Source of the DNA: Planctomycetaceae bacterium | Lineage (GTDB): Bacteria > Planctomycetota > Planctomycetia > Planctomycetales > Planctomycetaceae | Length of the DNA stretch: 47,971 nt | NCBI GenBank assembly: GCA_900299185.1 | Contig: OMIV01000110.1 | Coordinates: forward strand, 1 to 47,971 | Direction of reading: 5' to 3' | Shown here: positions 155-24,837 of the stretch, one piece after another | How positions within the stretch are numbered: position 1 is the stretch's first letter | Layout of the letters: each line of letters opens with the position of its first letter | Program-made: the position numbers and the translations under genes | The notes under the pieces: generated by a model | Databases searched by the model: none | Seen by the model: the letters and a program-made list of their open reading frames with translations, nothing else | What the model was told of the DNA's origin: nothing

Positions 155-3100
155 ATGTGGCTGATGGTTGTTGGTTTGCGACTACGACTTCTTCTGCTGT
201 GCTGGTTGCTGCTAAGCGGCCTCAGCCAGTGGGCTGTCGCGCAATCACAACCTCGTGACACCAAGATCAATCGCATCTTTGTGCCGGCGGGTAAGCCCGA
301 AACTTGGCCTCCCGGAGATTGGGTGCCGATCACGCCGGAACGTCTGCAAGCCTTGCTCGCTCAACAGAGTCGACCAGCACCTCGCACGTTGGTGGTGAAT
401 GAAGCTCGATTGCATGCCTCATTCGATCCCGATCGCAACGCACTGGTCAGTGGCCGCGCAGTGATCTCGTTTGCGGACAAAGTTCCAAACGATCGACTCG
501 TCGGGCTCTCGCCATTGAATGTCGCCATTCGCAACCCGAAGTGGACTCGCGCGACCGACCGAACCGTCGTCATGGGATACGACGAACATCAGCAACTGCA
601 AGTCGCCGTTCCACCCGATGGCGGTGAGCTGCAATTCGATTGGCAGCTTTCGGGCACATCGAGATTGAACGGAGTCGAATTCGATCTCCGACTGCCGCGC
701 TCGATCGTCGGTGAAGTATCTGTCGACACACCGAAAGACTGGTCGCTCTCTGTAGGAACAACGACACTCAAACCCGAAGCTCAGCCCAACGGTTCGTGGC
801 GCTGGACCATCAACGCGATGCCCGGCAACAGCCTGAGATTGTTGCTGTCTCCCGAATCACTCAAAGCCGCTCCGTATGCCGCCACCACATCGCTGCTCTA
901 TCGCCAAACCACAACGATGCAGCTTTCGCGCGGTCGCTTGGATGAGCGAGTGGATTACGTGCTCGATCCGTTGTCGGTCGTCCCTGCTCAATGGCAATTG
1001 CCGCTTCCAACGGAATGGCATTGCGATGCCGTTTCGATCAACGGCCGCTTGCTGACCGAGAACGAATGGCGCGTCTCGTCGGCCAACAAAGAGTCCTTGC
1101 TAACGGTGCCGTTGGCCGGGCAAAGCATGCTCGCAGTGCCGACCATCTCCGTTCGCATGAGCCGCACTTTTGCCGCAGGAGTCAAACAAGCGATCGGCAT
1201 TTGCCCGGCTCCCAAACACGAACGAGCGGTCTTACTCTCTGGCCAAGTTGAACTGCAAGTGGCTTCGTCTTTGGCATTGGTTCGACATGAACCACATGAC
1301 TTGCGACAGACCGAAGTGCGTCTGGATGAAGGCGTCGAACGTCTCGCGTTTCAACAAGATCGATCCGGTGCGCAGCTCGAACTGCAATGGTCCGACCAAA
1401 CCGAATTGCTGCGGCTGGAAACTCGACAGTTCCTCGTCGTGAATCTGGAAGACAGCCCGGCGAGCTTCCTGGCCGACATCGAAATCGAACCGCAGACTGG
1501 CTCGCTCTTTGACATGTCGATCGCTTTGCCTCGCAACTGGGAACTCAGCGATGTGCTGCTGACAAATGGCACCACCAATGGTCGTCGCATTGATTGGACC
1601 GTGGTGCCGGGCGAAACCGATCAGCAGCTCAAGCTGTCGTTTCCCGATGGGGTCTCGGCCAACAGCGCGGTGATGATTCGCTTGAATGGGCACTATGTCG
1701 GGACAGCGCGCACCACCGACTTCTCGGCTCCCATCGGAGTGCTGTCGCGAGGAACCCCCGACACGTTGCTTGTGGCAATCACGGGTTCGTCGACGGCCGC
1801 CACGTTGGTAGCTCCCAACAATCGCTTTCAGATCGCCACCACCGAGTCACTGATCGCAGCGCGTGCTTGGACTCCGTTGGCCAAGTTGGCGAGCGACAAG
1901 AACTCGCGCGTGTGGGTCGCCACCGGATTGGATTCCACGGTCGATCTGCGCGAAAGCCGCTTACGAGCTCAAGCACCAACCACCGAGCCTGCTCCGGCGA
2001 GTTCAGTGACTACCGCACTTCCCACACTTACCGCGACGAACAGCAAGACGACCGAATCGAAGGCACCGCGTGAAGGCTTTCGACCAGTCTTTGCGGGATC
2101 ATTGAGATCAACGCTTTCTCCGGGTCGAGCTAGTCGCGATCAGCACGAGCTCAGCTTGAAGTTGCTCTATGCCAGTGAAGGTGGATTGCTCGAATTCCGC
2201 ATGCCCGCGCACGCTCAATTGCAGCACGTGGAATGGCATGGTCAGCGAATCGCCGCGACGAACGTGGGCGATAAGTTGTCAGTCCCCTTGCAGTCACCAA
2301 TGCCCGGTGACGTGCTAGGCATTCATTACACGCTGCCTGCCGAGATGTTGTATCTGCGCGAAACCTATCAGGCCGACTTGCCTGAGTTCGCGGTGCCGAT
2401 TGATGGACTCGAGTGGGAAGTGCGACTGCCGAGTCGCTTCATGGTGGTGTCGTTCCCCGGCGACTTTGTCTTCGATGGCCGACGTTCGCGACCACATTGG
2501 TTGGCATGGCTCTTCGGACCACTCGCACGACGCCGCGACGATGAAGTCTTCAATCCCTTCGACGCCGAGCAATGGCAACCTCTCTTCATTGGAGATGAAG
2601 AAGACGTCATCAGTGAGAAGGACTCTGACAATGGTTGGATGAGTTACACCGCCCGAACGCCGCGACTGCCGGAGTCTCTGGCCATCGAGGTTTGCGATCG
2701 ACTGCGACTGGCTGCGACGGCGTGGCTCATTCTGGCAGCAACGGCTTGCGTGGGCGTCACTCTGCGAGCAACCAAATCGAATCGCCGGAACGCCGTCGGC
2801 ATCGCTTGGCTGACGTTCGCTGTGGCCTCGACCATGCTGATCTCCACGGCTTATGCCGAGCTCGTTGGAGCCACGATTGTCGGCAGTGTCATCGCCTGCT
2901 TGATCCCGCGAGGACTCATCCGTCGCGAGCCGAAAGCTCCGGTGGATCGCACGCATGAACGACACTTCGCTCCAACGGTCACTATCCAGCAAGGCTTGCT
3001 CGGAGTGCTGATGCTTGCCCTCTCGGTGCGAGCACTGACGGCTCAAGATGTGTCGCCCGTCGCACCTCCGATGGAGTCGATTGATCTGCTGATTGAATAC

Positions 3101-6100
3101 GAAGGCGATCGCTTTGCGGCACCCTTAAAGACCGGCTTGACCTGCGTGCCCGCAGCCACGCTCGAACAACTGACGAAGAACGCAACCCCGACTGCCACGA
3201 CCACTCGCGCTCTCTTCCAAGCCGCGACATACAGCGGCGAATGGACCGTTAATGGACTATCGAAACTGACTTCGAATTGGGACGTTTGGGTGTTGCATTC
3301 ATCAGCCGCGACCAAGACCGCAGCGGCCTTCGATGAAGTCGTCATCCCGTTGCCGCTTCGAACAATCGCCGACGTCAGCCAGTTCCGTATGAATGGCCGA
3401 CCTCTGGAACTGATTCCCAACGCCGACGGACAAAGCGTTCGAGTTCGCATTCCGAAGATCAAAGACACCGGAGCTGCGACCGCGCTGCCGCCGCTTCCTG
3501 AAGAGCGAGTCATCCCACTGGCCGACAAGTGGCGGCTCGTGAAACTTGAGGCCGAGTTGCGACCGCAGCCCCTGCGTTCGTTCAATCAGATTGCTTGGCA
3601 AGTACCGGTGCCGCGCACGCTGAGGTCGGATGTGGAAATCGTTCAACCGGATCCCGTGCTGGAACGTCCGGCGTTTTCAGCAGGATGGATCGGAGCGTCC
3701 GCCGACCGTTTGGGAGCTGGCGCCTTCGATCCTGTGAACGAACTGCGGTTGACTCAGCGCCGACCTGACGCCGCCAACCTGCAACCTGTCGTGAGCATGA
3801 AACTCAGAAGCCATATCGAGCTCGCGGCCGAGTCATCGCGTCGAGTGTTGTTGGCTCAGTACTCGGTTGAGCGCGGTGAGTTGAAACAAGTCGCCTGGAA
3901 ACTGCCGCCACATGCCATCGTGCAAACAGAACGCATCGTGGCCCCGCAACTGCGAGCGGCTCAGGTTCGTCGCACCGAAACCGAGACATTGCTGTTCGTC
4001 GAATTTAGTCCGCCATTAACTGGCGACTTCCAACTGGTAATCCCGTGGTTGTTGCCAGAGCGACAACCCGAAGGCACTCGCACGTTGGGTTGGGAACGAC
4101 CTGTCACAACGACTACACCGCATGCCGACCTTGAAGTCCGCGAGCATCTGGCCGGAGTCACCACTTCGCCCGGCTTTGTATGGCGACCAACGAACAACGT
4201 GCCCACGAACTTGGGTGCTGAAGTCGAGTCGGAATTCGTTGCTGGCTGGCCCAGCAACCAAAGCCTGCGTGCTCCGCAATTCGTATGGAACGTGGCTGCT
4301 CAACCCAACCCGCAATGGCGTTTGAGTCCGACTGTCGCAGACAAAGCTGCTCGCTGGACGACGTTGGCATTGATCGATCGCGACAGCATCTCGTGGCACT
4401 TCACGGCGCGCGTCGAAGTGGCCGGAGCACCGGCCTTCGTTCATCAATTAGAAGTCGATCCGCGACTCACCATCGAGGCCGTGACTGTCACTCAAGACGA
4501 CGTGAACCGCTTGACTTATTGGACTCGGCAAGGCGATCGACTGTTCTTGCATCTGCGCGATCGAGCGTCTGGCACGCAGCTCATTCGGGTACAAGCGCTG
4601 GAAGCCAATCGAGACACCGATGTTGTGAGTTATCCGCGCATGGAACTGACCGGAGCGAAGTCCGGCGAGGTCAACTTACGAGTGCAACGCACGCGAGGCG
4701 TCAGTGTCGAAGTGGCGGGCACCGAAGTCCCTGAGTCGGTCGATTTCGAAATCGAGCACGAGCTTGTGCCGCTCAACGCTGTGGAGGTCGGGTCATATCG
4801 AGTCCGCTCGACGGCAGATGTTTCGATGCTCGTCAGACTGCTGCCGGTAGTTTCACGCAGTTGGTGCGTCGCCACGATTGATAGTGGAACAACTCATCCA
4901 GCCATCGAACTGGCCTTCAACATCGAACCCGGAAGGCTCGAACGCACGCTGCTCACTTTGCCGAACTGGCCGTTGGGTGATGGCATCGTCGCCGAGATTG
5001 ATGGCGACCCGTCCGCGACGATCAAGATGAAACCGGGGTCACCACAAACCTGGGCCATTGAACTTGGCAAGAACACCGACTTGCCGCTGCAAGTCCGCAT
5101 GCATGTGCCGTTGGTCGAGACCGACGACATGTTCGAAATCGAACTGGCAGCACCAGTGCTCGAAGGCGTCGAAGAACAGACCGTTGGTTGGGCCAGTCAG
5201 CAAAAGAAGCTCGATGTCGCAGGAGCAGACCTGCTCTCTGAAGCGCAACGTGTCGTCTTCCTCGAACGTGGCATCATGGCTCCCGTTTTGATCGATGTGC
5301 CGATCATCGATTGGAACCGACAGTCTCTGACGGTGCCGCGCGCCAGCGTTGTGGTGGAGCGACTCAACGAACTCCCGTGCCTGGTCCAACACGAGTTGTG
5401 GCTTGGTCGCCGCGAACGCACTGCCGCTCGAACAACCATTCTGACGATCGCGACTCCCGGCGCGTTGAAGGTCAGTTGGCCGAACAACATCGTCATGCAA
5501 GCGTGCTTGGTAAATCGCATGCCTCGTTCGATCGAACGTGACGCGCAAGGACGATTGATAGTCCCGCTTAATAGCAGCGATCTCATGTCGACGGTCGAGC
5601 TGTTGTGGTCGCAACAAGAGTCCCATCGCCCCTTAAGGATCGAGCAGCGACAGCTTTCGCTACCGACGATTCAAGCCGCCAAGATCTTGGAGCGAGCCAC
5701 GCTCGCGCTGACAGACTCTCATCAAGCGTTGCCCATTCAGAAGCAGCCAGCCAAGAGCAACGGCGAATGGCTGACTGCTTTAGAAAGTTGGTCAACCGAG
5801 ACTTCGCTGCGACCAGCTCTGGTGACCAAGCAACTGACCGAAGTCATGAATCGCTTTCAGAGCGATCTTGATCCCGCCGAAGAAGCGAGCAGCGGGACGT
5901 CGCGACAAATGGTGCGGTTCGAGAACCTCAGCAACTCGACATTACGTGTGTGGGTGGTCGACGCAAGACTGGACCATGTTGCGATCTCCGTATTACTCGC
6001 GTTGCTCGTCGCGCCCATCATTCGGTTGTTGATGCAATTCCAAACGGGAGATTGGTTGGCGAGTCGACCGGCGATGGCCTGTGCCGCGTTGAGCGGGATT

Positions 6101-6259
6101 TGGTGGCTGTGTTTGCACGGCAGCGGATTGGGCTTGGCTGCATTGTGTGCTTCGATTCTGGCTATCGGACTCGCTTGGATCAGACGGCAGCGCGACTTGG
6201 AGCTCTCCGTATTGCGAAGCGCGTCCGCATCTCAGTCTCGAAGCCGACATTCATTTTGA
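155..6259 (+). CDS. Giant secreted/membrane protein of unknown function (2034 aa)
   Basis: I do not recognise a named family. The N-terminus is a signal peptide (hydrophobic residues about 8-29, cleavage near AVAQ). Residues about 30-845 are a long extracytoplasmic region rich in beta-type sequence. A membrane cluster follows at about 848-965, with hydrophobic runs around TAWLILAATACVGVTL, IAWLTFAVASTMLIS, LVGATIVGSVIACL and GLLGVLMLALSV. A second extracytoplasmic stretch runs from about 970 to 1940, then two or three helices at about 1943-2008 and a short basic tail. The two halves look like a repeated plan: each opens with a hydrophobic export-like segment and a VP...L..L stretch. The next ATG (164) has GAGG ten bases upstream and may be the real start; 155 keeps the longest frame. 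Downstream lies a hairpin without a T-run (6273-6289). A planctomycete-type envelope role is inferred only from topology. Confidence 0.85.
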   Translation: MWLMVVGLRLRLLLLCWLLLSGLSQWAVAQSQPRDTKINRIFVPAGKPETWPPGDWVPITPERLQALLAQQSRPAPRTLVVNEARLHASFDPDRNALVSGRAVISFADKVPNDRLVGLSPLNVAIRNPKWTRATDRTVVMGYDEHQQLQVAVPPDGGELQFDWQLSGTSRLNGVEFDLRLPRSIVGEVSVDTPKDWSLSVGTTTLKPEAQPNGSWRWTINAMPGNSLRLLLSPESLKAAPYAATTSLLYRQTTTMQLSRGRLDERVDYVLDPLSVVPAQWQLPLPTEWHCDAVSINGRLLTENEWRVSSANKESLLTVPLAGQSMLAVPTISVRMSRTFAAGVKQAIGICPAPKHERAVLLSGQVELQVASSLALVRHEPHDLRQTEVRLDEGVERLAFQQDRSGAQLELQWSDQTELLRLETRQFLVVNLEDSPASFLADIEIEPQTGSLFDMSIALPRNWELSDVLLTNGTTNGRRIDWTVVPGETDQQLKLSFPDGVSANSAVMIRLNGHYVGTARTTDFSAPIGVLSRGTPDTLLVAITGSSTAATLVAPNNRFQIATTESLIAARAWTPLAKLASDKNSRVWVATGLDSTVDLRESRLRAQAPTTEPAPASSVTTALPTLTATNSKTTESKAPREGFRPVFAGSLRSTLSPGRASRDQHELSLKLLYASEGGLLEFRMPAHAQLQHVEWHGQRIAATNVGDKLSVPLQSPMPGDVLGIHYTLPAEMLYLRETYQADLPEFAVPIDGLEWEVRLPSRFMVVSFPGDFVFDGRRSRPHWLAWLFGPLARRRDDEVFNPFDAEQWQPLFIGDEEDVISEKDSDNGWMSYTARTPRLPESLAIEVCDRLRLAATAWLILAATACVGVTLRATKSNRRNAVGIAWLTFAVASTMLISTAYAELVGATIVGSVIACLIPRGLIRREPKAPVDRTHERHFAPTVTIQQGLLGVLMLALSVRALTAQDVSPVAPPMESIDLLIEYEGDRFAAPLKTGLTCVPAATLEQLTKNATPTATTTRALFQAATYSGEWTVNGLSKLTSNWDVWVLHSSAATKTAAAFDEVVIPLPLRTIADVSQFRMNGRPLELIPNADGQSVRVRIPKIKDTGAATALPPLPEERVIPLADKWRLVKLEAELRPQPLRSFNQIAWQVPVPRTLRSDVEIVQPDPVLERPAFSAGWIGASADRLGAGAFDPVNELRLTQRRPDAANLQPVVSMKLRSHIELAAESSRRVLLAQYSVERGELKQVAWKLPPHAIVQTERIVAPQLRAAQVRRTETETLLFVEFSPPLTGDFQLVIPWLLPERQPEGTRTLGWERPVTTTTPHADLEVREHLAGVTTSPGFVWRPTNNVPTNLGAEVESEFVAGWPSNQSLRAPQFVWNVAAQPNPQWRLSPTVADKAARWTTLALIDRDSISWHFTARVEVAGAPAFVHQLEVDPRLTIEAVTVTQDDVNRLTYWTRQGDRLFLHLRDRASGTQLIRVQALEANRDTDVVSYPRMELTGAKSGEVNLRVQRTRGVSVEVAGTEVPESVDFEIEHELVPLNAVEVGSYRVRSTADVSMLVRLLPVVSRSWCVATIDSGTTHPAIELAFNIEPGRLERTLLTLPNWPLGDGIVAEIDGDPSATIKMKPGSPQTWAIELGKNTDLPLQVRMHVPLVETDDMFEIELAAPVLEGVEEQTVGWASQQKKLDVAGADLLSEAQRVVFLERGIMAPVLIDVPIIDWNRQSLTVPRASVVVERLNELPCLVQHELWLGRRERTAARTTILTIATPGALKVSWPNNIVMQACLVNRMPRSIERDAQGRLIVPLNSSDLMSTVELLWSQQESHRPLRIEQRQLSLPTIQAAKILERATLALTDSHQALPIQKQPAKSNGEWLTALESWSTETSLRPALVTKQLTEVMNRFQSDLDPAEEASSGTSRQMVRFENLSNSTLRVWVVDARLDHVAISVLLALLVAPIIRLLMQFQTGDWLASRPAMACAALSGIWWLCLHGSGLGLAALCASILAIGLAWIRRQRDLELSVLRSASASQSRSRHSF

Positions 6260-6505
6260 TGAGATTCTAAATGTCACTCTCGGAGTGACGTGACAAATCG
6301 GTGTTCATAGTCCGGGATGCAGATTCGCTAATACGGAGATCTTGGAATTACGCAGAACCCCGTTGACAGTGAAATCACCGAGCATCGAGTTTTTCGCTTT
6401 AACGGATTTCTTTGTCTGCGTTTGCGGTCCTAGCATCAATTGGCAAGCGGGCTTATCGGTCGCTCCACACTCGCATCGAACTTTAGTTCGTCTGGAATGG
6501 GACTC

Positions 6506-6595
6506 ATGCCAGTTCCGCACCTTGGGTATCAAGACGTCGTGATGAAGGCTCTCGACATGCTAACGGCAGGTCTGAGGGACTTCGTGCGCGAGTAA
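6506..6595 (+). pseudogene. Detached N-terminus of the Swt1-type HEPN gene, ended by an in-frame TAA
   Basis: This frame encodes a fragment containing ALDMLTAGLRDFVRE and then stops at TAA 6593-6595. Reading through the stop in the same frame continues with LAQAMGPDWQQIA, the start of the downstream CDS. Swt1-type HEPN domains typically open with a helix of the form ALexLxxGLxxFVExEL, so these 29 codons look like the natural beginning of the next gene. One substitution (CAA or GAA to TAA) would explain the break. Possible starts in this frame are ATG 6497, 6506 or 6542; none has a strong ribosome-binding site. A sequencing error is an alternative. Confidence 0.6.
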
Positions 6596-6607
6596 CTCGC
6601 CCAAGCG

Positions 6608-7306
6608 ATGGGCCCAGACTGGCAGCAAATCGCGCAATCCAGTTTCCGCAAGGATCGAAATCTGGATGACGTCTCCGGCGACATCGACGACTGGGACGCG
6701 CACGCCTTGCTCACGATTATGTGGGACCACTGGAACGCCGCTTTCCGTCGCCGCTTGGGACTGTTTGAACGCAGTCTGGTCGCCGAGCTGAGAGCCTTCC
6801 GCAACCGCTGGGCTCATCAACGGCAATTCAACTTCGACGATACCTATCGGTTCCTCGACAGCGTCAATCGCTTGCTGTCGGCCATCGGTGCCAAGAACGC
6901 GACGGACCTCAGCGAATTGAAGTTCAACTTGCTGAAGGACGAGTTCTCTGAAGCTCTGAATGCAGAGTCGATGGAAGCCGACAATCGACGCGATCGCTGG
7001 GTCGTGGCCGGTGTTTACGCGGCTTGCGGAACGGTGTTCGTCACGCTGATCCCGTATGCGTTTGGCATAAAGACATGGCCATTGAGCGTCGCCTTTGCGT
7101 TGGCGTTCTCGTACTTGATCTACAAGCGGTTGAAGTGGCGACCATTGCAACTTGGCCCGCATGAATGTCGCCGTTGTCGCCGCATCATCTATGGCACCAG
7201 ATGCCCCTACTGCGACGAGCCGCCGGTCTTTGACTCTGCCGAGTTCCGAATGGGCGATCTCGAAGGCGAATCAAAAGACAGCACCCGTCGCGCCTTGCCG
7301 CGCTAG
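6608..7306 (+). CDS. Swt1-like HEPN domain protein with two TM helices and zinc ribbon
   Basis: Residues about 1-120 resemble the Swt1-type HEPN domain: the motif R65-N-R-W-A-H70 fits the HEPN Rx4-6H signature associated with RNA binding or cleavage, and WDHWNAAF and ELRAFRNRWAHQ match the family pattern. Two membrane helices follow (about 131-154 and 157-172), then a C-terminal zinc ribbon with C187-x2-C190 and C199-x2-C202. The ATG at 6608 is the first start after TAA 6593-6595; the true N-terminus probably lies upstream in the same frame (see the fragment at 6506). If the stop is real, re-initiation at this ATG, 12 bases later, could still make a shortened protein. It converges on the DUF4175-like gene. 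RNase activity is a family-level inference only; the membrane anchor plus zinc ribbon is an unusual combination for an HEPN protein. Confidence 0.8.
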   Translation: MGPDWQQIAQSSFRKDRNLDDVSGDIDDWDAHALLTIMWDHWNAAFRRRLGLFERSLVAELRAFRNRWAHQRQFNFDDTYRFLDSVNRLLSAIGAKNATDLSELKFNLLKDEFSEALNAESMEADNRRDRWVVAGVYAACGTVFVTLIPYAFGIKTWPLSVAFALAFSYLIYKRLKWRPLQLGPHECRRCRRIIYGTRCPYCDEPPVFDSAEFRMGDLEGESKDSTRRALPR

Positions 7307-7403: not shown

Positions 7404-10400
7404 CTACTCGGCATTCTTTTTAGCTGGCTCGTTGCTGCCGGACTTGGCGAGTTCCTCGAAGTACAGCTTGATGAGCTTCGAGTAATCGCCGTTCGCCTTT
7501 CGCTGAGACGATTGCAGGATCTCGGTCTTCAACGTGCCCGGCAGCTTGCCCCAGTTACGCTGCGCTTGTTTCAACAGATCAGTCTCTGGAGTCGAAACGT
7601 CACCAGGACTCTGATTGCCTTGTTCACCCGATGACGAACTGGGAGCGTTGTTCGCTGACTGTTGCTGCTTGGCCGTGATGCTCCGCGGACGATTGCCCGA
7701 TTGAGACTTACCGGCATCCGCTTGCAGTCGCTCGGCAGCTTGACTGAGTTGCTCAGCCGCTTGCCGCAGCGCTTCTGCATTCGCCGCGCGAGCTTGGTCG
7801 GAACTGCTCGCTGACCCGCTTTGCCCCGGCTGGCCTTCGCCGGGCTGACCTTGATTCGCAGTGCTAGGTGTTCCGTTCGCTGACTGCTGGCCGCCTTGCG
7901 CGTTGCCAGACTGACCCGACATCGGCTGACCGGGCATAGGCTGCCCCGACAGCGGTTGTCCCGGCATGGGCTGGCCGTTCATGGCGGATGTCATCGGAGC
8001 TACACCCCCTGCCTGTTGGCCGCCGGGTTGGCTGGCGGCAAGTTCGCGTTGAGCTTGCTGCAAGCGTTGAGCAGCGGTTGTCAGTTGGCTCGCTAACTCG
8101 CCGGGAATGGCATGCTGCTGACCGGATGCAGGCTGTGCGTTTTGAGCTTGCTCAGCAGCTTGTCGCAGCGACTCAGCCGCTTGCTGACTGGCCTGCGCGG
8201 CATCACCAACATTGCCTTGTTGCAGTGCTTGCTGAGCATCTCTTTGAGCTTGTTGGCCTTCCCCCGTGGCTTGTCCCGCTTGATTGGCTTGCTTCGATTG
8301 CTGATCGAGATCCAACGGCGCCGCCCCGAGTTGCTTGGCCAGTTGATTGAGTTCGCGTTGCAGGTTCGACGTCTGGTTAGCGAGCTGTCGTTGTTGATTG
8401 CGTTGCGCTTCCGCTCGAGCTGCTGGGTCTGCGGCAAGTTGATCGAGACTCTGAGCGACTTGCTGCTGACGCTCGGCCAAATCGCTGGCTCGTTGAGACA
8501 TTCCCGGAGCCGACTCTTTGAGTGCCTCGCTCGCTTGCCGCGCGGATTGAGCAGCTTGCTGAGCGTTCTTTGCAGCTTGATCGAGCTGACCATTCTGGGC
8601 CTGCCCTTGAGCTTGCTCGCCTTGCTGAGCCGCTTGTCGCGCCGCTTCTGCCGCTGCCGATTCAGGACCGGCTTGCTCCGCCGCTTGTCGTGCTAACTCT
8701 GCCGCCTCGGCAGCCAGATTCGCCTGCTGCTCGGCGAGCTCTCGTGGCGATGCGCGATCGGTGCTTGGTTCAGCCGGTTGACCTTTTGATGCTTGAGCTG
8801 TCTGAGCATTCGCCTGTTGTGGATCGTTGCTTGCCGCGTCTGACTTCATGGGAGAACCATTAGCCTGCTCGTTCGGCATGGGTTGACCCGGCGTCGCTTG
8901 CCTGGACATCGGCTGCGCGTCTGTAGGTTTTTCGCCTTTGGGCTGATTTAACTCGGCCAACTCACGAACCAACTGCCGCTCTTGCTGCGCCAACTCACGA
9001 GCCTGTTCGGCGAGTTGACGAGCTTCAGCTTGAGGGTCTTCAGGAGCCGCACGATTCGCAGCTTGTGCCAGTCGTTCGAGTGCTTGCTCGGCTTGCTGCA
9101 ACGCGCGGTTCGCAGCTTGAGCTTGCTGCTCAGAAGGTGTTTGAGCGAGTGCATCAGCCGCAGCATCAAGAGCCTGCTCGGCAGCTCGCTTCGCGGATTG
9201 AGCTTGAGGCGTCTCAAGTTCTCCCACTTGATCCGCCAGCTTCTGCTCTTGCTCAGCAAGCTGTTTGAGCTGCTCGGCATTCGGAGCCTGCTTGCCATCA
9301 CCGAGTTGCTCAGCGGCTTGCTTCTTCAATGCGTCTTGCTGCTTTTGAAGCTCGGCCAATGCGGCTTGAGTTTGCTTCTGCTGTGCTTCGCGATTCGCTG
9401 CGGCAGCTTGTTGTTGCTCAGCGGTCTGAGCGGCCTCGGCCAATTGATCCAGCGCGGCAGCGGCTTGTTGTGCGTTCTCTGCCGCGCGCTTGGCTGCTGC
9501 TTGAGCCTTCTCGGCATTGTTCGAAGCAGGCTGGTTCTGGCCGTCCATGGGCTTCCCGGGTTGTTGAGCCGCTGCCTCATCAGCCTTAGCGGCTTCGACC
9601 AATTGCTTCACGGCTTCCGCCGCTTGATCGACGGCGGCCTTTTGTTCGTCGCGTGCTTCTTGGCCTGCATCCAGTTGAGCAGCCGCGATCTCCAGCGCCG
9701 TTTCTTTGGCGGCCAGGTCTCGCAACGACGTTGACTCTTCGCCCTTCGCGAGTTCATCCGCGGCTTGAGCGATGTCTTTGGCTAAGGCTCGTTGCCGATC
9801 AGCCAAGGCCTTCGCAGCTTCGCGAGGATCAGCAGGCAGAGGCTCGGCCTTCAAGAGTTCTTGTTGAGTCCGCTCGGCATCCTGCGCCAACTTCTGAGCC
9901 AGTTCCTCGGCGGCTTGAGCGTTCCCGGCTTTGATCTCATCCAAGATTTTCTGTGCTGCTTCAGGATCGATCGGCGTCACCGGAGTCCGTGCTTGTTGAG
10001 CTTCCACTTGATCCGCCAACTGCTGAGCTTTCTCAGCAAGCGCGGCTTGCTTCTCGGCCAACGGAGCAGCAGCTTCTTGCTGGTGCTTTGCGTCACCATC
10101 AACGGCGTTGGCCAATTGGTCCTGACGATCCGCCAGTTTCTTCGCCTGCTCTGCCAACTGCGCGAGCCGCTCCAATTGATGATCTCGCGCGGACTCGACG
10201 ATCTCCGTCTTCTCTTCCAGCAACTTGTTGAGCGACGTGAGCAGCTCATCTTGTTCTTTGCCAAGCTGAGCCTGCTCTTGCTGAAGTTGCTCTTTTGCCG
10301 CCGCGCGATCCTCTGGTCGTTCACCGGCCAACAACGGCGACTGCTCCAACTCTTTGCGTTTGTCCTCCAACTGAGCTGCATCATCGGCCAGTTGATTGGC

Positions 10401-12530
10401 TCGCTGCGCCAAACGACCGACATCAAGCAGCTCGCGTTCGAGCTTGGCTAACTGATCCAACCGCTTCTCCATCGCGGCGAGTTGCTCGTCAGCCTTCTTC
10501 AAACCCACGGCATTGTCTTCGAGCTGTTCGGCCAGATCTTTGGGATCAAACTTCGTCGCCGTTTGAAGCTGTTGCGACTGCTTGGCGATCTCCTGCTCGG
10601 CAATCTTCTTGGCCTCCGCAGCAAGGTTCGCAAACAACGGATGCTCGCCAAATCGCTCGGCCAAATCCTTGAGACGCTCGGCCGTCGCGTGCTCTTGCTC
10701 GGCCAACCCAATCAGTTTGTCGGCCTGCTTGAAGGGCTTCTTGTCGGCCTCGTTCTGCTGAGCAACCGCCTGCAATTCGTCGCTGCGTTTCCGCTCAACA
10801 TTGAGATCCTGTCGGATTGCTTCCAGCTCTTGCTTCAGCTCCTTCTGCCGAGCAATCACATCCGAGGCACCCGGCGACAACGCTTCGGCTCGCAGAGCGA
10901 CGTAACGCACTTCGGACCAAACTTCATTGGCTCCGGGAATGGGACGCTCGTCCGCCGCTCGCACTTGCAGGCTCAATCGGTCCCCGGCCTTCAAGGCCAG
11001 ATCCTTGAGATCAATGCGGAACTCATGTTCGAGAGACCTGCCGCCGAGCTTTTCATTCGGAACCTTGATGACCTGGTCCAATCCACTTTCGGCTTTCAAA
11101 TGCAGTTCGAGCGCACCCAGCCCGAGATCATCAGCTGCGGCAAGCTTGAGCACGTAGACGTCGGTCGGTCGCGCTTCGTCATGCGTCGATGCTCGAACAT
11201 CCAACAACGGCGGCTGATCGAGCGTGATCAGCAACTGCCGATGAGGCTCTGCGTTCGTAAGCCCATGCTCATCCTGCAGTCGAAAAGCAACGATGGCTTG
11301 CAGCTCTGCCGGCAGTTCAAGTGTCGCCGTTCTTCCATCAGCGGCGAGCTTCATGGCCGAGCGCGGCAGCTCATCAACAACCGGAGCCAGCTCATTGAGG
11401 CGCGGTCCAGTCTGCTTTCGATCTTTCTCGGGTACGGCTGCGTCCTTCTTCTTTTCGAACTGAGTCCCAGGCACAGCGCTAGCCGACAGCCATTCGATCT
11501 CGGCGGACTTCATCGGCTTGTTGAAGGACAATTGCCACTTCAATCGACTGCGTTCAAAGACGCGGATATCGCCAGTCACACCATCGATCTCGCGCCGCGG
11601 TTCACCGACATACGGCGGCGACTCAACGATCAACTTCGCGGCCGTCACGCTCGGAGCATCCACAACTTCAACATGAAACTTCTTCGAACGAGCGCCATCG
11701 CCCACGATCTGGAAGTCGAACGAATCGAAGACCGCCGGCAATGTGGCCTGAAACGCATTCGACTCCGCATTGAATTGCAGATCGCGCGAGTCCGCTTCGC
11801 CATTCGAACTGCGAACGCTGATCGAGACCGGCTCTGGGATGGGATCATCGGACCCATTTCGCCATTGAATCCGCGCAGCGAGCGTGACTTCCGAGCCTCG
11901 CGCAACAACGCGATCACCGTCCAGCACATCAAACTGCAATCGCCCCACTGACTCGAAGTTGCCGAACGGATTGACCAATCGAGCAAACAACATCCCCGAG
12001 ACCGAAGGGAACAACACGAAGCTCAGCAACAAGCCGACGAGTGCCGCCGTCCCCGACCAAAAGCTGCGAAGAGCGCGGCGCTTCGGTACCGCTTGCTCGA
12101 TTTCGCAATCGGCCAAGCACTCGATCGTCTCGCGTTCGAGCATCTCGCGCATGAACGGTGAGCCGCGCTGCCCTTCAGCTAGACCCGGTTGAGTCAGTTC
12201 CACCAGCGACGTGAGGCGCTCTCCGAACTCTGGAAATTGCTGCTCGGCAAACGCCGCAAGCTCGGTGCTCGACAACTTCTGCAAGCACGGTCTGACCAAC
12301 CACCAACCGCCCAGAGACAGCGTCGCCACCCCAAACCCGACCAACATTCCGAGCCGAGTTATTGGTTCAAAGTCGATCAACCAATCCGCTGACAACACGG
12401 CCACAACCAAAGCCGTCACGCACAGCAAGAACTTGCCGCAGCCAGCCAAGACGGCCACTTGTCGTACTCGCTTCCCCAGCCCCAACAACCGCTGATTCAA
12501 CTCGCGCGGCAACTCGTATTGGCAAGCCAT
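7404..12530 (-). CDS. DUF4175-like membrane protein with giant Ala/Gln-rich coiled coil (1708 aa)
   Basis: The N-terminus has two hydrophobic segments (about 33-51 and 60-79) and a third at about 155-177, followed by an extracytoplasmic beta-rich part to about residue 540. This layout resembles DUF4175 proteins. From about 550 to 1640 the chain is nearly all heptad-like Ala/Gln/Glu/Lys coiled coil with repeated AEQAQ, LAEQ and QAAEQ units. Two Met-Pro-Gln-Gly-rich linkers interrupt it, including tandem GQPMPGQPxSGQPMPGQPMS. A short conserved-looking tail with LKTEILQSSQRKANGDYSKLIK closes it. It probably spans or scaffolds the periplasm; function is unknown. Several long plus-strand frames across this gene, one of 489 codons, are shadows of its biased codon content. 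Confidence 0.85.
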   Translation of the reverse strand: MACQYELPRELNQRLLGLGKRVRQVAVLAGCGKFLLCVTALVVAVLSADWLIDFEPITRLGMLVGFGVATLSLGGWWLVRPCLQKLSSTELAAFAEQQFPEFGERLTSLVELTQPGLAEGQRGSPFMREMLERETIECLADCEIEQAVPKRRALRSFWSGTAALVGLLLSFVLFPSVSGMLFARLVNPFGNFESVGRLQFDVLDGDRVVARGSEVTLAARIQWRNGSDDPIPEPVSISVRSSNGEADSRDLQFNAESNAFQATLPAVFDSFDFQIVGDGARSKKFHVEVVDAPSVTAAKLIVESPPYVGEPRREIDGVTGDIRVFERSRLKWQLSFNKPMKSAEIEWLSASAVPGTQFEKKKDAAVPEKDRKQTGPRLNELAPVVDELPRSAMKLAADGRTATLELPAELQAIVAFRLQDEHGLTNAEPHRQLLITLDQPPLLDVRASTHDEARPTDVYVLKLAAADDLGLGALELHLKAESGLDQVIKVPNEKLGGRSLEHEFRIDLKDLALKAGDRLSLQVRAADERPIPGANEVWSEVRYVALRAEALSPGASDVIARQKELKQELEAIRQDLNVERKRSDELQAVAQQNEADKKPFKQADKLIGLAEQEHATAERLKDLAERFGEHPLFANLAAEAKKIAEQEIAKQSQQLQTATKFDPKDLAEQLEDNAVGLKKADEQLAAMEKRLDQLAKLERELLDVGRLAQRANQLADDAAQLEDKRKELEQSPLLAGERPEDRAAAKEQLQQEQAQLGKEQDELLTSLNKLLEEKTEIVESARDHQLERLAQLAEQAKKLADRQDQLANAVDGDAKHQQEAAAPLAEKQAALAEKAQQLADQVEAQQARTPVTPIDPEAAQKILDEIKAGNAQAAEELAQKLAQDAERTQQELLKAEPLPADPREAAKALADRQRALAKDIAQAADELAKGEESTSLRDLAAKETALEIAAAQLDAGQEARDEQKAAVDQAAEAVKQLVEAAKADEAAAQQPGKPMDGQNQPASNNAEKAQAAAKRAAENAQQAAAALDQLAEAAQTAEQQQAAAANREAQQKQTQAALAELQKQQDALKKQAAEQLGDGKQAPNAEQLKQLAEQEQKLADQVGELETPQAQSAKRAAEQALDAAADALAQTPSEQQAQAANRALQQAEQALERLAQAANRAAPEDPQAEARQLAEQARELAQQERQLVRELAELNQPKGEKPTDAQPMSRQATPGQPMPNEQANGSPMKSDAASNDPQQANAQTAQASKGQPAEPSTDRASPRELAEQQANLAAEAAELARQAAEQAGPESAAAEAARQAAQQGEQAQGQAQNGQLDQAAKNAQQAAQSARQASEALKESAPGMSQRASDLAERQQQVAQSLDQLAADPAARAEAQRNQQRQLANQTSNLQRELNQLAKQLGAAPLDLDQQSKQANQAGQATGEGQQAQRDAQQALQQGNVGDAAQASQQAAESLRQAAEQAQNAQPASGQQHAIPGELASQLTTAAQRLQQAQRELAASQPGGQQAGGVAPMTSAMNGQPMPGQPLSGQPMPGQPMSGQSGNAQGGQQSANGTPSTANQGQPGEGQPGQSGSASSSDQARAANAEALRQAAEQLSQAAERLQADAGKSQSGNRPRSITAKQQQSANNAPSSSSGEQGNQSPGDVSTPETDLLKQAQRNWGKLPGTLKTEILQSSQRKANGDYSKLIKLYFEELAKSGSNEPAKKNAE

Positions 12531-14386: not shown

Positions 14387-14440
14387 ATGTCTGGGCGTTT
14401 GGCGCGGCGTCTTGAACCATCAACTGCGGAGCGACTGTGA
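14387..14440 (+). CDS. 17-codon leader ORF overlapping the lptD-like start
   Basis: ATG 14387 is preceded by AAAGGA (14373-14378) at eight bases, a better ribosome-binding site than that of the following gene. It encodes MSGRLARRLEPSTAERL and stops at TGA 14438-14440, which overlaps the GTG start of the lptD-like gene in the tetranucleotide GTGA. Such overlap usually means translational coupling. The peptide is basic and matches nothing I recognise. It may serve only to deliver ribosomes to the weak GTG start. Confidence 0.45.
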   Translation: MSGRLARRLEPSTAERL

Positions 14441-17400
14441 CGGATATTGTTCGCAGTCGCTGGCGGTGGTTTGCTCTCCATGTCGTCTTGCTCGTCATGG
14501 CCGCGCTCGTGCTGCGCACTCAGATGAAAGCCCAGGAAACTCCCGAGCCGCTCTCTGCGGTCGCTCCCGCCGTTCGAATCGCGGCAGATATCGCCCATCA
14601 GTCTAAAAGCGATGACGGCAGCCAGATTTCAGTCTTGCGCGGCAATTGCCGGATTGAGCAAGGCGACACCACGATGTTCGCTCGGCAGGCCGTCATCTGG
14701 GAAACGCGGATCGGCAATCGGCAGCGAATCGAGGTTTATCTCGAAGACGACGTCCGCATCGAAACAGCGTCCAACAGTCAGCAGCTTCAACAGACTTTTT
14801 TGCAACTTTGGTCGGACTCGGGAGTGACTTACCAATCGCGCTGGCCGCGCGAGTATCAAGCTCCGCTAACCGACCCCCTGACACAGCGCGGAATGTCTCG
14901 GCGCAAAGTCCACTTCGATCAGATCAGTCAGCAGTCTGCTCAACTGCAAGTGCCAATCGACGGCAGCACGTTCCAAGGCTTGATTCTCGAAACGCCGAAC
15001 TCCGTGATGCGCCGCGTGCGAGTCTCATCACGGACCGGCTCGCCGTTCTCGGTGCGGACCGAGCGTTCGACGACGTCTACCCCGGCCGAGCAGATCGCGA
15101 TGCTGACTGGCGGCGTGAAGTTGAACATCGACTCGCCGACTGCCGATGGTCGACCTGACCCCAAAGCTTTGGAACTGGCCGCCGACAACATGGTCGTGTG
15201 GACCGAACCGACGGACATCGACAACCTCGCAGCGGGGGCCGAGCGATTCCAAACGCGAGACACTCCGCTGCAAATCTATCTCGAAGGCAACATCGTCGTG
15301 CGTCAGGGCGACACCGTGTTGCGAGCCGCTCGGGCGTTCTACGACGCGCGCGACAAGCGAGCTTTGATGACGGACGCCGAACTCCGCGTTTCGATGGCCA
15401 AGTCCGACGTGCCGTTGCGAGTCCGTGCCGGTCGCATCCGACAACTTGGCGAGAAGTCATTTCATGCTCAGCAGGCTTGGATGACTGGCAGCAAGTTCGG
15501 CAAGCCCGGCTATCGACTCGAAGCCAACGACATCTTCTATGAAGAGCGAGTGGTCAATCCGTGGGTCCATTCCAATGGCGGCTGGGTTGATCCGGAGACC
15601 GGCGAATACGACGACGGTGTCGTTGATTGGGTCACCACGCTCGATAACCGGTTCTACTTGGGCGACCTTCCAGTTGGGTATCTGCCCTACCTCAGTGGCC
15701 CCGCCGAAGACCCTAAAATTCCGATTCGCAAAGCATCGGTGCGATCCGATCGTCCCTTCGGTGTCTCGGTGCAGACGGTGTGGGATCCCTTCCATCTGCT
15801 GTCGATCGACAAACCCAAGGGGCTCGATCTGGGCGTCTTGATTGACGGCTACTCGCGACGCGGCGTCGGACTGGGACTTGAAGGCGCTTACAAAGGTGAA
15901 GATGCCTTTGGCGTCGACGACCGATTCTCGGGAGAACTGCTGCCGTACTACGTTCGCGATGAAGCCACAGACATCTTGGGTCTGGATCGTCGCAACGTGA
16001 AAGTGCCTGATCCGAATCGCGGTCGAGCCTTCTGGCGACATCGGCACGAGCTGCCCAACGACCTCTTCATCAGTGGAGAAGTGGGCTGGATTAGCGATCG
16101 CAACTTCTTGGAGCAGTACTACGAGAACGAATTCGATCGCGACAAAGACAACGAAACGCTGCTCTACGGGCAACAGCACATCAACGAGAACTGGACCTGG
16201 GGCCTGTTGGGTCGCGTGCAAACCAACGACTTCGAGAACAACACACAGTGGTTGCCCAAGGGCGACCTGTATGGCCTGGGCGAACCGTTGCTAGATGGCC
16301 TCATCACATGGACCAGCCACACGTCGGCAGGCTATGGGCAGGTCTATCAAGCCGACGCTCCGTATGACCCCGCCGAAGCTTTCACGGCACTACCGTATTA
16401 CTCCGGTGTGTCGGGTGGAGTTTTTATGACTCGGCATGAGTTGGCGGCCCCGTTCAACTTGGGACCAGTCATCATCTCGCCGTATCTGCGAGGCGAAGCT
16501 GCCTATTGGAGCGAGGATTTGACGGGTTCGTCAGCGGACCGCTTCGTCGGCACGGGCGGTGTCCGAGCTAGTCTGACGATGTGGCGCGTGTGGCCGTACA
16601 TCCGCAACTCGATCTTCAATCTCAATGGTCTCGCTCACAAGATGGTGTTCGACGTCGACTGGTCCTACACCGATTCGTCGCGCGACCTTTCAACGATCGC
16701 TCAATACAACGAGTTCGACGACGACGCCCAAGAACGACTGCGACAGCGCATTGTCACCAACACCTTTGGCGGCGCCTTGCCGAACTTCTTGGATCCTCGT
16801 CAGTACGCAGTGCGAGCTGGCGCCGGTGAAATGGTGAGCGTGCCGTATCACGAACTCGTCAACGACCTGCATGCGATCCGCTTCGGTTGGCACCATCGGC
16901 TGCAAACAAAGGTCGGTCCTCCTGATCGACAACGCATCCGAGATTGGATGACCCTGGACCTGGGAGCCGCGTACTTCCCGAGCGCTCAGCGCGACAACTT
17001 TGGTGAAGACTTTGGCCTGCTAACTGCTCGCTACAGTTGGATGATGAGCGACCGAGTCACGCTGCTCGCCGGTGCGACTTATGACACCTTCGCGGGCGGG
17101 CAAGAGCTATGGCATGTAGGCTTCCTGACACAGCGTCCCGAGCGTGGCAGCTTCTATTTGGGTTATCGCAATGTGCGAGCCAAAGACATCGACAGCCAGA
17201 TTCTCACCAGCAGCGTGAGCTATCTGTTGAACCCCAAGTGGATCATCACTGCCAGCACCGCCTACGACGTCGCCGAGCATCAGAACCGCGGCCAGTCACT
17301 GACGTTGACTCGCGCTGGAGCCGACTGGTTGTTCCATCTCGGCGGCAGCTTCGACGCGAGCAAGAACAGCTACGGTGTGGCGGTCTCCTTCGAACCGCGC

Positions 17401-17460
17401 TTCGGAGCTCGCGACGCCAGCTCGACGCAGTTGAGTTCGCTGTTGGGCATCACTCGCTAA
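14437..17460 (+). CDS. lptD: LptD/OstA-like outer membrane LPS-assembly protein
   Basis: A 1007-aa protein with an N-terminal export signal (hydrophobic residues about 11-26, then Ala-Gln). An OstA/LptA-like beta-jellyroll region follows (about 55-330), with repeated strands such as VLRGNCRIEQGDTTMFARQAV and IYLEGNIVVRQGDTVLRAARAFYDARDKRALM. The long C-terminal part has alternating aromatic and polar strands typical of a beta-barrel and ends in a strand near FEPRF. By family, LptD with LptE inserts lipopolysaccharide into the outer leaflet. The start is GTG, overlapped by a short leader ORF. An LptE-like lipoprotein and BamD are encoded about 1-3 kb away on the other strand, supporting the call. 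Sequence divergence from proteobacterial LptD is large, so the transported lipid is inferred. Confidence 0.8.
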   Translation: MTDIVRSRWRWFALHVVLLVMAALVLRTQMKAQETPEPLSAVAPAVRIAADIAHQSKSDDGSQISVLRGNCRIEQGDTTMFARQAVIWETRIGNRQRIEVYLEDDVRIETASNSQQLQQTFLQLWSDSGVTYQSRWPREYQAPLTDPLTQRGMSRRKVHFDQISQQSAQLQVPIDGSTFQGLILETPNSVMRRVRVSSRTGSPFSVRTERSTTSTPAEQIAMLTGGVKLNIDSPTADGRPDPKALELAADNMVVWTEPTDIDNLAAGAERFQTRDTPLQIYLEGNIVVRQGDTVLRAARAFYDARDKRALMTDAELRVSMAKSDVPLRVRAGRIRQLGEKSFHAQQAWMTGSKFGKPGYRLEANDIFYEERVVNPWVHSNGGWVDPETGEYDDGVVDWVTTLDNRFYLGDLPVGYLPYLSGPAEDPKIPIRKASVRSDRPFGVSVQTVWDPFHLLSIDKPKGLDLGVLIDGYSRRGVGLGLEGAYKGEDAFGVDDRFSGELLPYYVRDEATDILGLDRRNVKVPDPNRGRAFWRHRHELPNDLFISGEVGWISDRNFLEQYYENEFDRDKDNETLLYGQQHINENWTWGLLGRVQTNDFENNTQWLPKGDLYGLGEPLLDGLITWTSHTSAGYGQVYQADAPYDPAEAFTALPYYSGVSGGVFMTRHELAAPFNLGPVIISPYLRGEAAYWSEDLTGSSADRFVGTGGVRASLTMWRVWPYIRNSIFNLNGLAHKMVFDVDWSYTDSSRDLSTIAQYNEFDDDAQERLRQRIVTNTFGGALPNFLDPRQYAVRAGAGEMVSVPYHELVNDLHAIRFGWHHRLQTKVGPPDRQRIRDWMTLDLGAAYFPSAQRDNFGEDFGLLTARYSWMMSDRVTLLAGATYDTFAGGQELWHVGFLTQRPERGSFYLGYRNVRAKDIDSQILTSSVSYLLNPKWIITASTAYDVAEHQNRGQSLTLTRAGADWLFHLGGSFDASKNSYGVAVSFEPRFGARDASSTQLSSLLGITR

Positions 17461-18431: not shown

Positions 18432-18968
18432 CTACCAAGGCGAGTCCATCAAGTCGACGATGCGTCGCGCGGTCTGATGCACGCTTTCGTTAACCACTGT
18501 CGCTAGAGATTGGCCGACTTCAGGAGCGAAGTCGCTGTTGGTCGCCAACGCGGTCGAGCCGGCATCCAGCGGGACACTTTGCTGAGCCAGCACTTCTCCA
18601 CTGCGAATGTCTTCCCACGTGACTTCGACGACCATCGTCAGTTGCAGCTCGCGCGGGTCATCGTTGCGAGTCTCGCCCAGCACGTTCTTGCGGAAGTCGA
18701 CAATGCGACCGGTCAGCCGAGTCTGAGCACCAGGGCCTTTCGCCAAGCGCATCGTCGTGCGGTTCTGAATCTCTTTCTGCACCGCTTCCGTCAGCATCTG
18801 CTCCATGCCGCGACGGAAGGAGTCGTTCTTGAAAGTGACCACTTCGACCGACGTGATGCAGGCATCATGAGCTGGCCCGACCGCATAGTTACAACCACTC
18901 GCGCCGATCACGCATCCGGCCACAAGGCCGATGATTCGCAGCACGAAGATGGGTCGCAGATAGGTCAT
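18432..18968 (-). CDS. lptE: LptE-like LPS-assembly lipoprotein
   Basis: A 178-aa lipoprotein with a signal peptide ending in ASGC; Cys26 is the lipidation site. The mature part has the LptE-type pattern: an opening strand around SVEVVTFKNDSF, the helix RRGMEQMLTEAVQKEIQNRT, then strands with RLTGRIVDFRKNVLGE and LTMVVEVTWEDI and a C-terminal helix. LptE plugs the LptD barrel in the outer membrane. It is the last gene of a recO-bamD-lptE run, 63 bases after bamD. An lptD-like gene lies nearby on the other strand, which strengthens an otherwise weakly conserved family assignment. Confidence 0.75.
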   Translation of the reverse strand: MTYLRPIFVLRIIGLVAGCVIGASGCNYAVGPAHDACITSVEVVTFKNDSFRRGMEQMLTEAVQKEIQNRTTMRLAKGPGAQTRLTGRIVDFRKNVLGETRNDDPRELQLTMVVEVTWEDIRSGEVLAQQSVPLDAGSTALATNSDFAPEVGQSLATVVNESVHQTARRIVDLMDSPW

Positions 18969-23700: not shown

Positions 23701-24837
23701 ATGATGGGTAGCAGAAGCCAAATTGAAATCGCCAAACAAGGGCGTGCGGCACTTTCCAAATGGCGTCAGGCCAATCCCGATGTGCTACTCAACTTGTCCG
23801 AGGCCGACCTGGTTGGCGTCAATCTCCGTGGTGCGAATCTCAAACGCGCTGACCTAACCGGAGCTTGCTTTCAAGAGGCTGATCTCGTTGGAGCACAACT
23901 GACCGAAGCCGATCTCACCCGTGCAGATTTGCGAGGTGCCAAGCTCGTCAAAGCAGATTTCTATTCCGCGAAGTTGCTTCGCGCGACACTGGCCGGAGCC
24001 GATGCCAGCGGTGCCTATTTCCGTCGCGCCGAGATGACACAATGCGACTTGCGCGGGACAGATCTCACTAAGGCTGACTTGATTGACGCCAACCTGCAAA
24101 AGGTCGCGCTGCAAGAAGCCATCTTGATCGCTGCAGAACTCGCTCGAACTCGACTGACCGACGCCGACTTGACCGGTGCGACGTTCGGCTGGACCTCACT
24201 CGGCGACTTGGATCTTTCACGAACACTCGGCCTTGATGACATCAAACATATCGGCCCCAGCATGTTGGGCATCGATACCGCCACGCGGTCTCACGGCGTG
24301 TTGTCGACGACCTTCCTACAAGGCTGCGGCATTGCGGAAGGAGTCATCAACCACTGGCAGTCCTTGTTCGGACATCCCGCCGAACAAGTCGGCTGTATCA
24401 TCCGCTACACCGCCGAAGATGCCGTTTTCGCGCAAGCTCTCTTTAAGCAGGCGCAAAGCAAAGGGGTACGATGCTGGCTCGATCAACAGTCGGACGAGGG
24501 TGAGAAGCACGCTCATCTTTCGTCAGCGACCTATGAGACCACCGAACGCGTCCTGCTTTGCGCTTCGAAGCCGGCCCTAAAGACCGAATGGATGAACGCT
24601 GAATTGGAACGTGTGCTTGATCGAGAGCAGGACCTCAAAGCATCGACTGGTCGAGACATTCGACTGCTCTTTCCGCTCAATCTCGACGGCTACATGTTCA
24701 GCGGAGATTGGAAGCACAAGCACGAAAAGTACATCGCTAAGCTGGCGATCGACTTCGTTGGTTGGCGACGAAACACCGAGAAGCTCGAACAAGAATTCGC
24801 CAAGCTGCTGCCGCTACTCATCGGCGATAAGCGATAG
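23701..24837 (+). CDS. Pentapeptide-repeat protein with C-terminal TIR-like domain
   Basis: Residues about 31-165 are a right-handed beta-helix of pentapeptide repeats of the A(D/N)LxxA type (for example ADLVGVNLRGANLKRADLTG). Residues about 230-375 look like a TIR domain: strand one VGCIIRYTAEDAVFAQAL, a KGVRCWLD strand-helix, and W297-M-N-A-E301, which fits the WxxxE motif whose Glu is catalytic in bacterial TIR NADases. By family such TIR proteins can deplete NAD+ or make signalling nucleotides during immunity; pentapeptide domains usually mediate protein contacts. Start ATG 23701 follows a strong AGGGGGGG. It is a lone gene without an obvious partner. Enzymatic activity is inferred. Confidence 0.85.
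   Translation: MMGSRSQIEIAKQGRAALSKWRQANPDVLLNLSEADLVGVNLRGANLKRADLTGACFQEADLVGAQLTEADLTRADLRGAKLVKADFYSAKLLRATLAGADASGAYFRRAEMTQCDLRGTDLTKADLIDANLQKVALQEAILIAAELARTRLTDADLTGATFGWTSLGDLDLSRTLGLDDIKHIGPSMLGIDTATRSHGVLSTTFLQGCGIAEGVINHWQSLFGHPAEQVGCIIRYTAEDAVFAQALFKQAQSKGVRCWLDQQSDEGEKHAHLSSATYETTERVLLCASKPALKTEWMNAELERVLDREQDLKASTGRDIRLLFPLNLDGYMFSGDWKHKHEKYIAKLAIDFVGWRRNTEKLEQEFAKLLPLLIGDKR

Follow-up and report, generated by a model that had tools for sequence, protein, structure and literature searches.

The window, that is, the whole stretch of DNA analysed here, is a complete contig of 47,971 bases from a draft genome whose 383 contigs total 7.87 Mb, with a completeness of 97% and a contamination of 3.4%. 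Between two long ORFs, 155–6259 (+) for 2034 aa and 7404–12530 (−) for 1708 aa, neither of which has a Pfam match at E 0.001, lies a small gene for a protein with a HEPN domain of the Swt1 type. Its frame, read by translation on the plus strand from 6497 to 7306, consists of 32 codons, an internal TAA, 236 more codons and a terminal TAG (Table 1). The part 5′ to the TAA has in-frame ATG codons at 6497, 6506 and 6542. Elsewhere in the window are found lipopolysaccharide transport genes, LptD-like at 14437–17460 (+) and LptE-like at 18432–18968 (−), and an ORF at 23701–24837 (+) in which Pfam detects pentapeptide repeats and, after them, a TIR domain.

Table 1. Features of the interrupted HEPN gene; positions are those of the window.
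Feature	Position	Strand	Remark
HEPN gene, 5′ part	6497..6592	+	32 codons, ends at the internal stop
Internal TAA	6593..6595	+	Within the first HEPN segment; loop of an inverted repeat
HEPN gene, remainder	6596..7303	+	Rest of HEPN, RNRWAH, two hydrophobic segments, zinc ribbon
Candidate restart ATG	6608..6610	+	In frame; a frame of 232 codons would start here, past the stop
Terminal stop TAG	7304..7306	+	

The TAA is inside the domain, and the HEPN_Swt1 domain of this gene is thus not in one uninterrupted frame. With an X in place of the stop, the Pfam profile PF18731 (HEPN_Swt1) is matched over its full length (positions 1–115, E = 4e-34, 117.8 bits), and the protein read from ATG 6608 matches positions 23–115 (E = 1.4e-26, 93.4 bits); with and without the part upstream of the stop, the score is above the curated cut-off of 27.5 bits. 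A start at ATG 6608 therefore loses the first 22 profile positions, and the stretch upstream of the TAA contributes about 24 bits to the match. A chance open frame 5′ of the TAA is ruled out by these bits, which belong to the same Pfam domain, together with the conserved codons in relatives described below. The preliminary description had proposed a single Swt1-HEPN gene cut by one in-frame TAA with both sides still coding; the continuous match to the masked protein bears this out, and the positions that it gave for the stop and for ATG 6608 were exact.

The motif RNRWAH at residues 102–107 corresponds to the catalytic pattern Rx4-6H with a polar residue after the R. It is followed by two segments found by hydropathy (17-residue mean of at least 1.3), at about residues 167–189 and 190–209, which probably span the membrane, and by a zinc ribbon of the form CRRC...CPYC at residues 224–239, for which the Pfam family Zn_ribbon_3 gives E = 0.17, under its cut-off. 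A PIN domain is absent from the protein by Pfam search. A search of solved structures by sequence returned one chance-level match (E = 0.5), and an AlphaFold model, made from a two-row alignment as input, has a mean pLDDT of 41.

This architecture, HEPN with two transmembrane (TM) segments and a zinc ribbon, is already known in print from a protein named Plim_2023, in which Plim presumably stands for Planctopirus limnophila. Among the Swt1-like HEPN proteins, an entry of Table 1 in Anantharaman et al. (2013; PMC3710099) reads “ZnR with two TMs (Plim_2023), active”. By the table description, the protein of the window resembles this type, since both have a Swt1-type HEPN, two TM segments and a zinc ribbon; the window copy differs from it in the TAA in the first HEPN segment. 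A second type in the same paper is represented by Ava_2192, where HEPN is combined with large AAA ATPase-type proteins (DUF499); the HEPN_Swt1 domain is common to it and the window gene, but the Ava_2192 type consists of large proteins whereas the window gene encodes a small stand-alone one. Eukaryotic Swt1 shares the domain name and a distant homology (PF18731). Its HEPN is described in that paper as joined to a PIN domain and probably inactive (PMC3710099), whereas the bacterial protein of the window keeps RNxxxH and is without PIN by Pfam. In the open-licence PMC literature Plim_2023 was found in Anantharaman et al. (2013; PMC3710099) only, and no experimental study of this protein or its domain was found there. 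The HEPN gene with its TAA is a real feature in a known kind of protein. From what is known of the family, the product of an intact gene is most likely a membrane-anchored putative RNase that would act at the membrane.

The gene is widely kept in the family. A HEPN_Swt1 gene is present in 113 of 170 family genomes, the window genome counted, and the 112 relatives have mostly one match each (105), the other seven having two. In 100 of the 112 the match covers the position of the stop and is open there. Stops are entirely lacking in 95 of these 100, and five were flagged with one stop near the C-terminus. For four of the five (G005, G160, G058 and G032) the flagged stop is the terminal one, 3′ of the zinc ribbon, in an alignment that overruns the gene. 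In the fifth, G115, the stop is also near the C-terminus yet before the position of the zinc ribbon, and a ribbon is absent from all forward frames of the 1,501-base stretch; this locus (L038, G115:C37:6400-7900) is either a natural ribbon-less variant or a C-terminal truncation. Among the other 12 relatives, ten have matches that start later in the protein, one (G060) is cut by the contig end and one (G106) is decayed, its match being split into two pieces. The G106 copy (L039, G106:C2:90000-91500) is broken by two in-frame stops and a frame change, and its catalytic His is replaced by Asn, which indicates that the gene is sometimes lost. A sample at phylum level, 149 genomes spread evenly over the larger group, has 13 with a HEPN_Swt1 match, seven of which belong to the same family; the remaining six are all in open frames of 887–1199 aa, that is, in large proteins, whose length suggests the ATPase type.

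For 79 of the 112 relatives the proteins were aligned with that of the window; 30 were left out, in addition to G106, G080 and G060, which are broken or cut. The column of the stop is occupied by Glu in 32, Lys in 18, Arg in 11 and Gln in 10 of the 79, and by Cys (3), Ala (2), Ser, His and Met (1 each) in the rest. The preliminary description had asked whether Gln or Glu occupies this codon. Among the closest relatives it is mostly Gln: eight of the ten nearest have Gln and two have Cys, and in the congener G001, which is 68% identical, the codon is one for Gln, a single transition away from TAA. As an observation that would speak against an interrupted gene, the preliminary description had named homologues all starting at the equivalent of ATG 6608, with the upstream codons unconserved. 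The relatives are of the opposite kind: all 79 have a residue in the stop column and none has Met in the column of ATG 6608. Residues 1–9 are poorly shared, and conservation starts at about residue 10, with Leu19 in 76, Leu22 in 76 and Gly25 in 71 of the 79, all upstream of the stop. Downstream, R102, N103 and H107 are invariant (79/79), C224, C227, C236 and C239 are each kept in 78/79, with G115 as the exception, and in 78/79 HEPN is followed, before the Cys pairs, by the two hydrophobic segments.

No operon and no conserved adjacent antitoxin gene was found near the HEPN gene with the loci of 22 relatives. The window neighbours have no homologue among the ORFs of these loci (BLASTP, E 1e-8, coverage >50%). 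The ORF for HEPN could be placed in 17 of the 22, a simple ORF picker having missed its frame in L142, L144, L150, L151 and L156. In the congener, no homologue of the neighbours of the window HEPN gene was found at the corresponding place, with paralogue-level matches only. Nothing here suggests a toxin-antitoxin pair. Inactivation or lowered expression had earlier been called biologically plausible on the ground that HEPN RNases are often toxic; this motive is weak, with no recurring neighbour and a single match in 105/112 relatives. A gene present in 113/170 genomes, mostly as a single match and with no partner found beside it in the window, would seem to encode a cellular RNase kept mainly by vertical descent rather than a mobile toxin. 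In three relatives of two genera (L149, L153 and L155) the HEPN gene adjoins the same pair of genes (clusters c1 and c5), whose products have about 480 and 970 aa, and both members of the pair are also present in L144, where the HEPN frame was not placed. A functional link between this recurrent pair and the HEPN gene beside it is possible.

The 236 codons after the TAA contain no further internal stop, and the catalytic and Cys residues are kept. Given the lack of decay 3′ of it, the TAA is either very young, or tolerated, or an error of the assembly. How recent it can be was bounded with a codon likelihood model of 14 sequences and 239 codon columns on a fixed tree, some inner nodes of which have low support (37–59). 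The one-ratio omega is 0.053, and the fitted length of the window branch is 5.57 substitutions per codon. When a neutral tail of 0.02, 0.05, 0.08 or 0.20 substitutions per codon is placed on this branch, lnL changes by −0.70, −1.79, −2.92 and −7.65, respectively. A neutral tail beyond about 0.05 is disfavoured, and constraint therefore held over about 99% of the branch or more, with any loss falling in about the last 1%; synonymous sites are saturated on this branch, and the bound on age rests mainly on amino-acid changes. An omega fitted to the window branch alone is lower than the background (0.008 vs 0.053, 2dlnL 4.13). The branch length reached its bound in this fit and the value is not interpretable as such; no relaxation of constraint is detectable. 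For four other tips, 2dlnL is 0.01, 0.17, 0.18 and 3.64 in this test. The earlier view that the lesion is recent or an assembly error agrees with these results.

PF18731 detects this locus only in the window's own genome, with one TAA inside, and no backup HEPN_Swt1 copy was found there at the level of Pfam. For comparison with other conserved domains of the same assembly, internal stops were counted in ABC_tran matches (0/53, with 150 of 163 candidates scored) and in Sulfatase matches (1 of the 67 listed, with 150 of 183 candidates scored). The single-stop sulfatase gene has one TAG in a frame otherwise open (L137, G000 contig C149:34610-35704). The assembly consensus is thus good, yet with some single-stop genes. 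The first 35 bases of the window, at the contig start, are an adapter-like sequence, whose minus strand yields a spurious peptide end, VSYTHLTLPTK. We take positions 1–35 to be a Nextera transposase adapter, which points to short reads.

Probably, the TAA is a real and very recent loss-of-function nonsense mutation, too young for further decay to have followed. The TAA would then be a base of the organism's DNA, a single nonsense substitution by which translation ends within the first segment of HEPN, after 32 codons (29 or 17 from the other starts), and no functional protein would be made. As in a pseudogene, a gene that relatives have intact carries a disabling lesion here. This reading is favoured by the continuity of the domain across the stop and the open frames of relatives at that position, by the Gln codons of the nearest relatives, from which TAA is a single transition away in the congener, by the intact 236 codons and the disfavoured long neutral tail, by the rarity of internal stops in this genome, and by the decayed copy in G106. 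Against it, an error at one base of the assembly accounts for the same data, and the stop in the sulfatase gene also fits errors or a strain mixture. On the same side stand the saturation of synonymous sites, with an age bound that rests mainly on amino-acid changes, and a window-branch omega that is lower, not higher, than the background.

A base error at the TAA, or the base of a minority strain taken into the consensus, with the gene of the organism intact, is a possible explanation, though we think it doubtful. The genome is a draft of 383 contigs with a contig start that points to short reads, and the remainder of the HEPN gene is constrained. Furthermore, GCGAG-TAA-CTCGC is a perfect inverted repeat with a stem of 5 bp, and the TAA is exactly its three-base loop. 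Stems of at least 5 bp around a three-base loop occur at 58 of 47,931 positions of the window and, in four long ORFs, at 6 of 5,495 codon positions. Illumina miscalls are reported to be preceded by inverted repeats, in a passage of PMC3622629 that cites earlier work. The repeat was spotted after the fact, however, and the minimum-energy DNA fold lacks the hairpin, although the centroid and the RNA fold have it. The rarity of stops in conserved domains of the same assembly (1/120 matches among those scored) also argues against an error. The sequence GCGAG-TAA-CTCGC fits a miscall or, as a guess, a mutation-prone loop.

Two further readings keep the TAA and let a protein be made; even taken together, they are unlikely. 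Quite unlikely on its own is a restart at ATG 6608, 12 bases past the TAA, which would give a 232-residue protein without about 22 HEPN positions. The part downstream is intact and constrained and includes the catalytic motif, but the product would miss the conserved Leu19, Leu22 and Gly25, none of the 79 relatives has Met in that column, and no Shine-Dalgarno-like run is seen by eye in the 25 bases before the ATG. Planctomycetes often have genes without Shine-Dalgarno sequences. Ribosomes at an ORF-internal stop are known to restart at a nearby internal Met codon, with a reach on which reports differ (PMC6728339). The proposal of the preliminary description that the lesion is tolerated through re-initiation at ATG 6608 gains little from this comparison. 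Barely credible is a read-through of the TAA, by a suppressor tRNA or recoding, to the full-length protein. The intact and constrained downstream frame would agree with it. Among the 43 tRNA genes given an anticodon, however, none reads TAA, in a list that is itself incomplete, since it lacks tRNA-Trp and tRNA-Tyr and leaves 63 of 213 candidates unscored; several ORFs in the window terminate in TAA; and the column is free of stops in all relatives, with no sign of conserved recoding. A stop recoded lineage-wide is ruled out by the same stop-free column. It is also highly improbable that the TAA in its hairpin loop and the ATG 12 bases on form a tolerated attenuator, which would keep an N-truncated membrane HEPN RNase at a low level; such an attenuator, if true, would account for the absence of decay downstream of the TAA.

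Taken alone, the very recent nonsense mutation that we favour affects a single base of one draft genome, and its biology is ordinary unless the split gene is used. Of wider use may be the protein itself, for which no partner gene was found in the window: a HEPN protein with two TM segments and a zinc ribbon, the catalytic residues of which are invariant in 79/79 aligned relatives and the gene for which is carried by 113 of 170 genomes of this planctomycete family.
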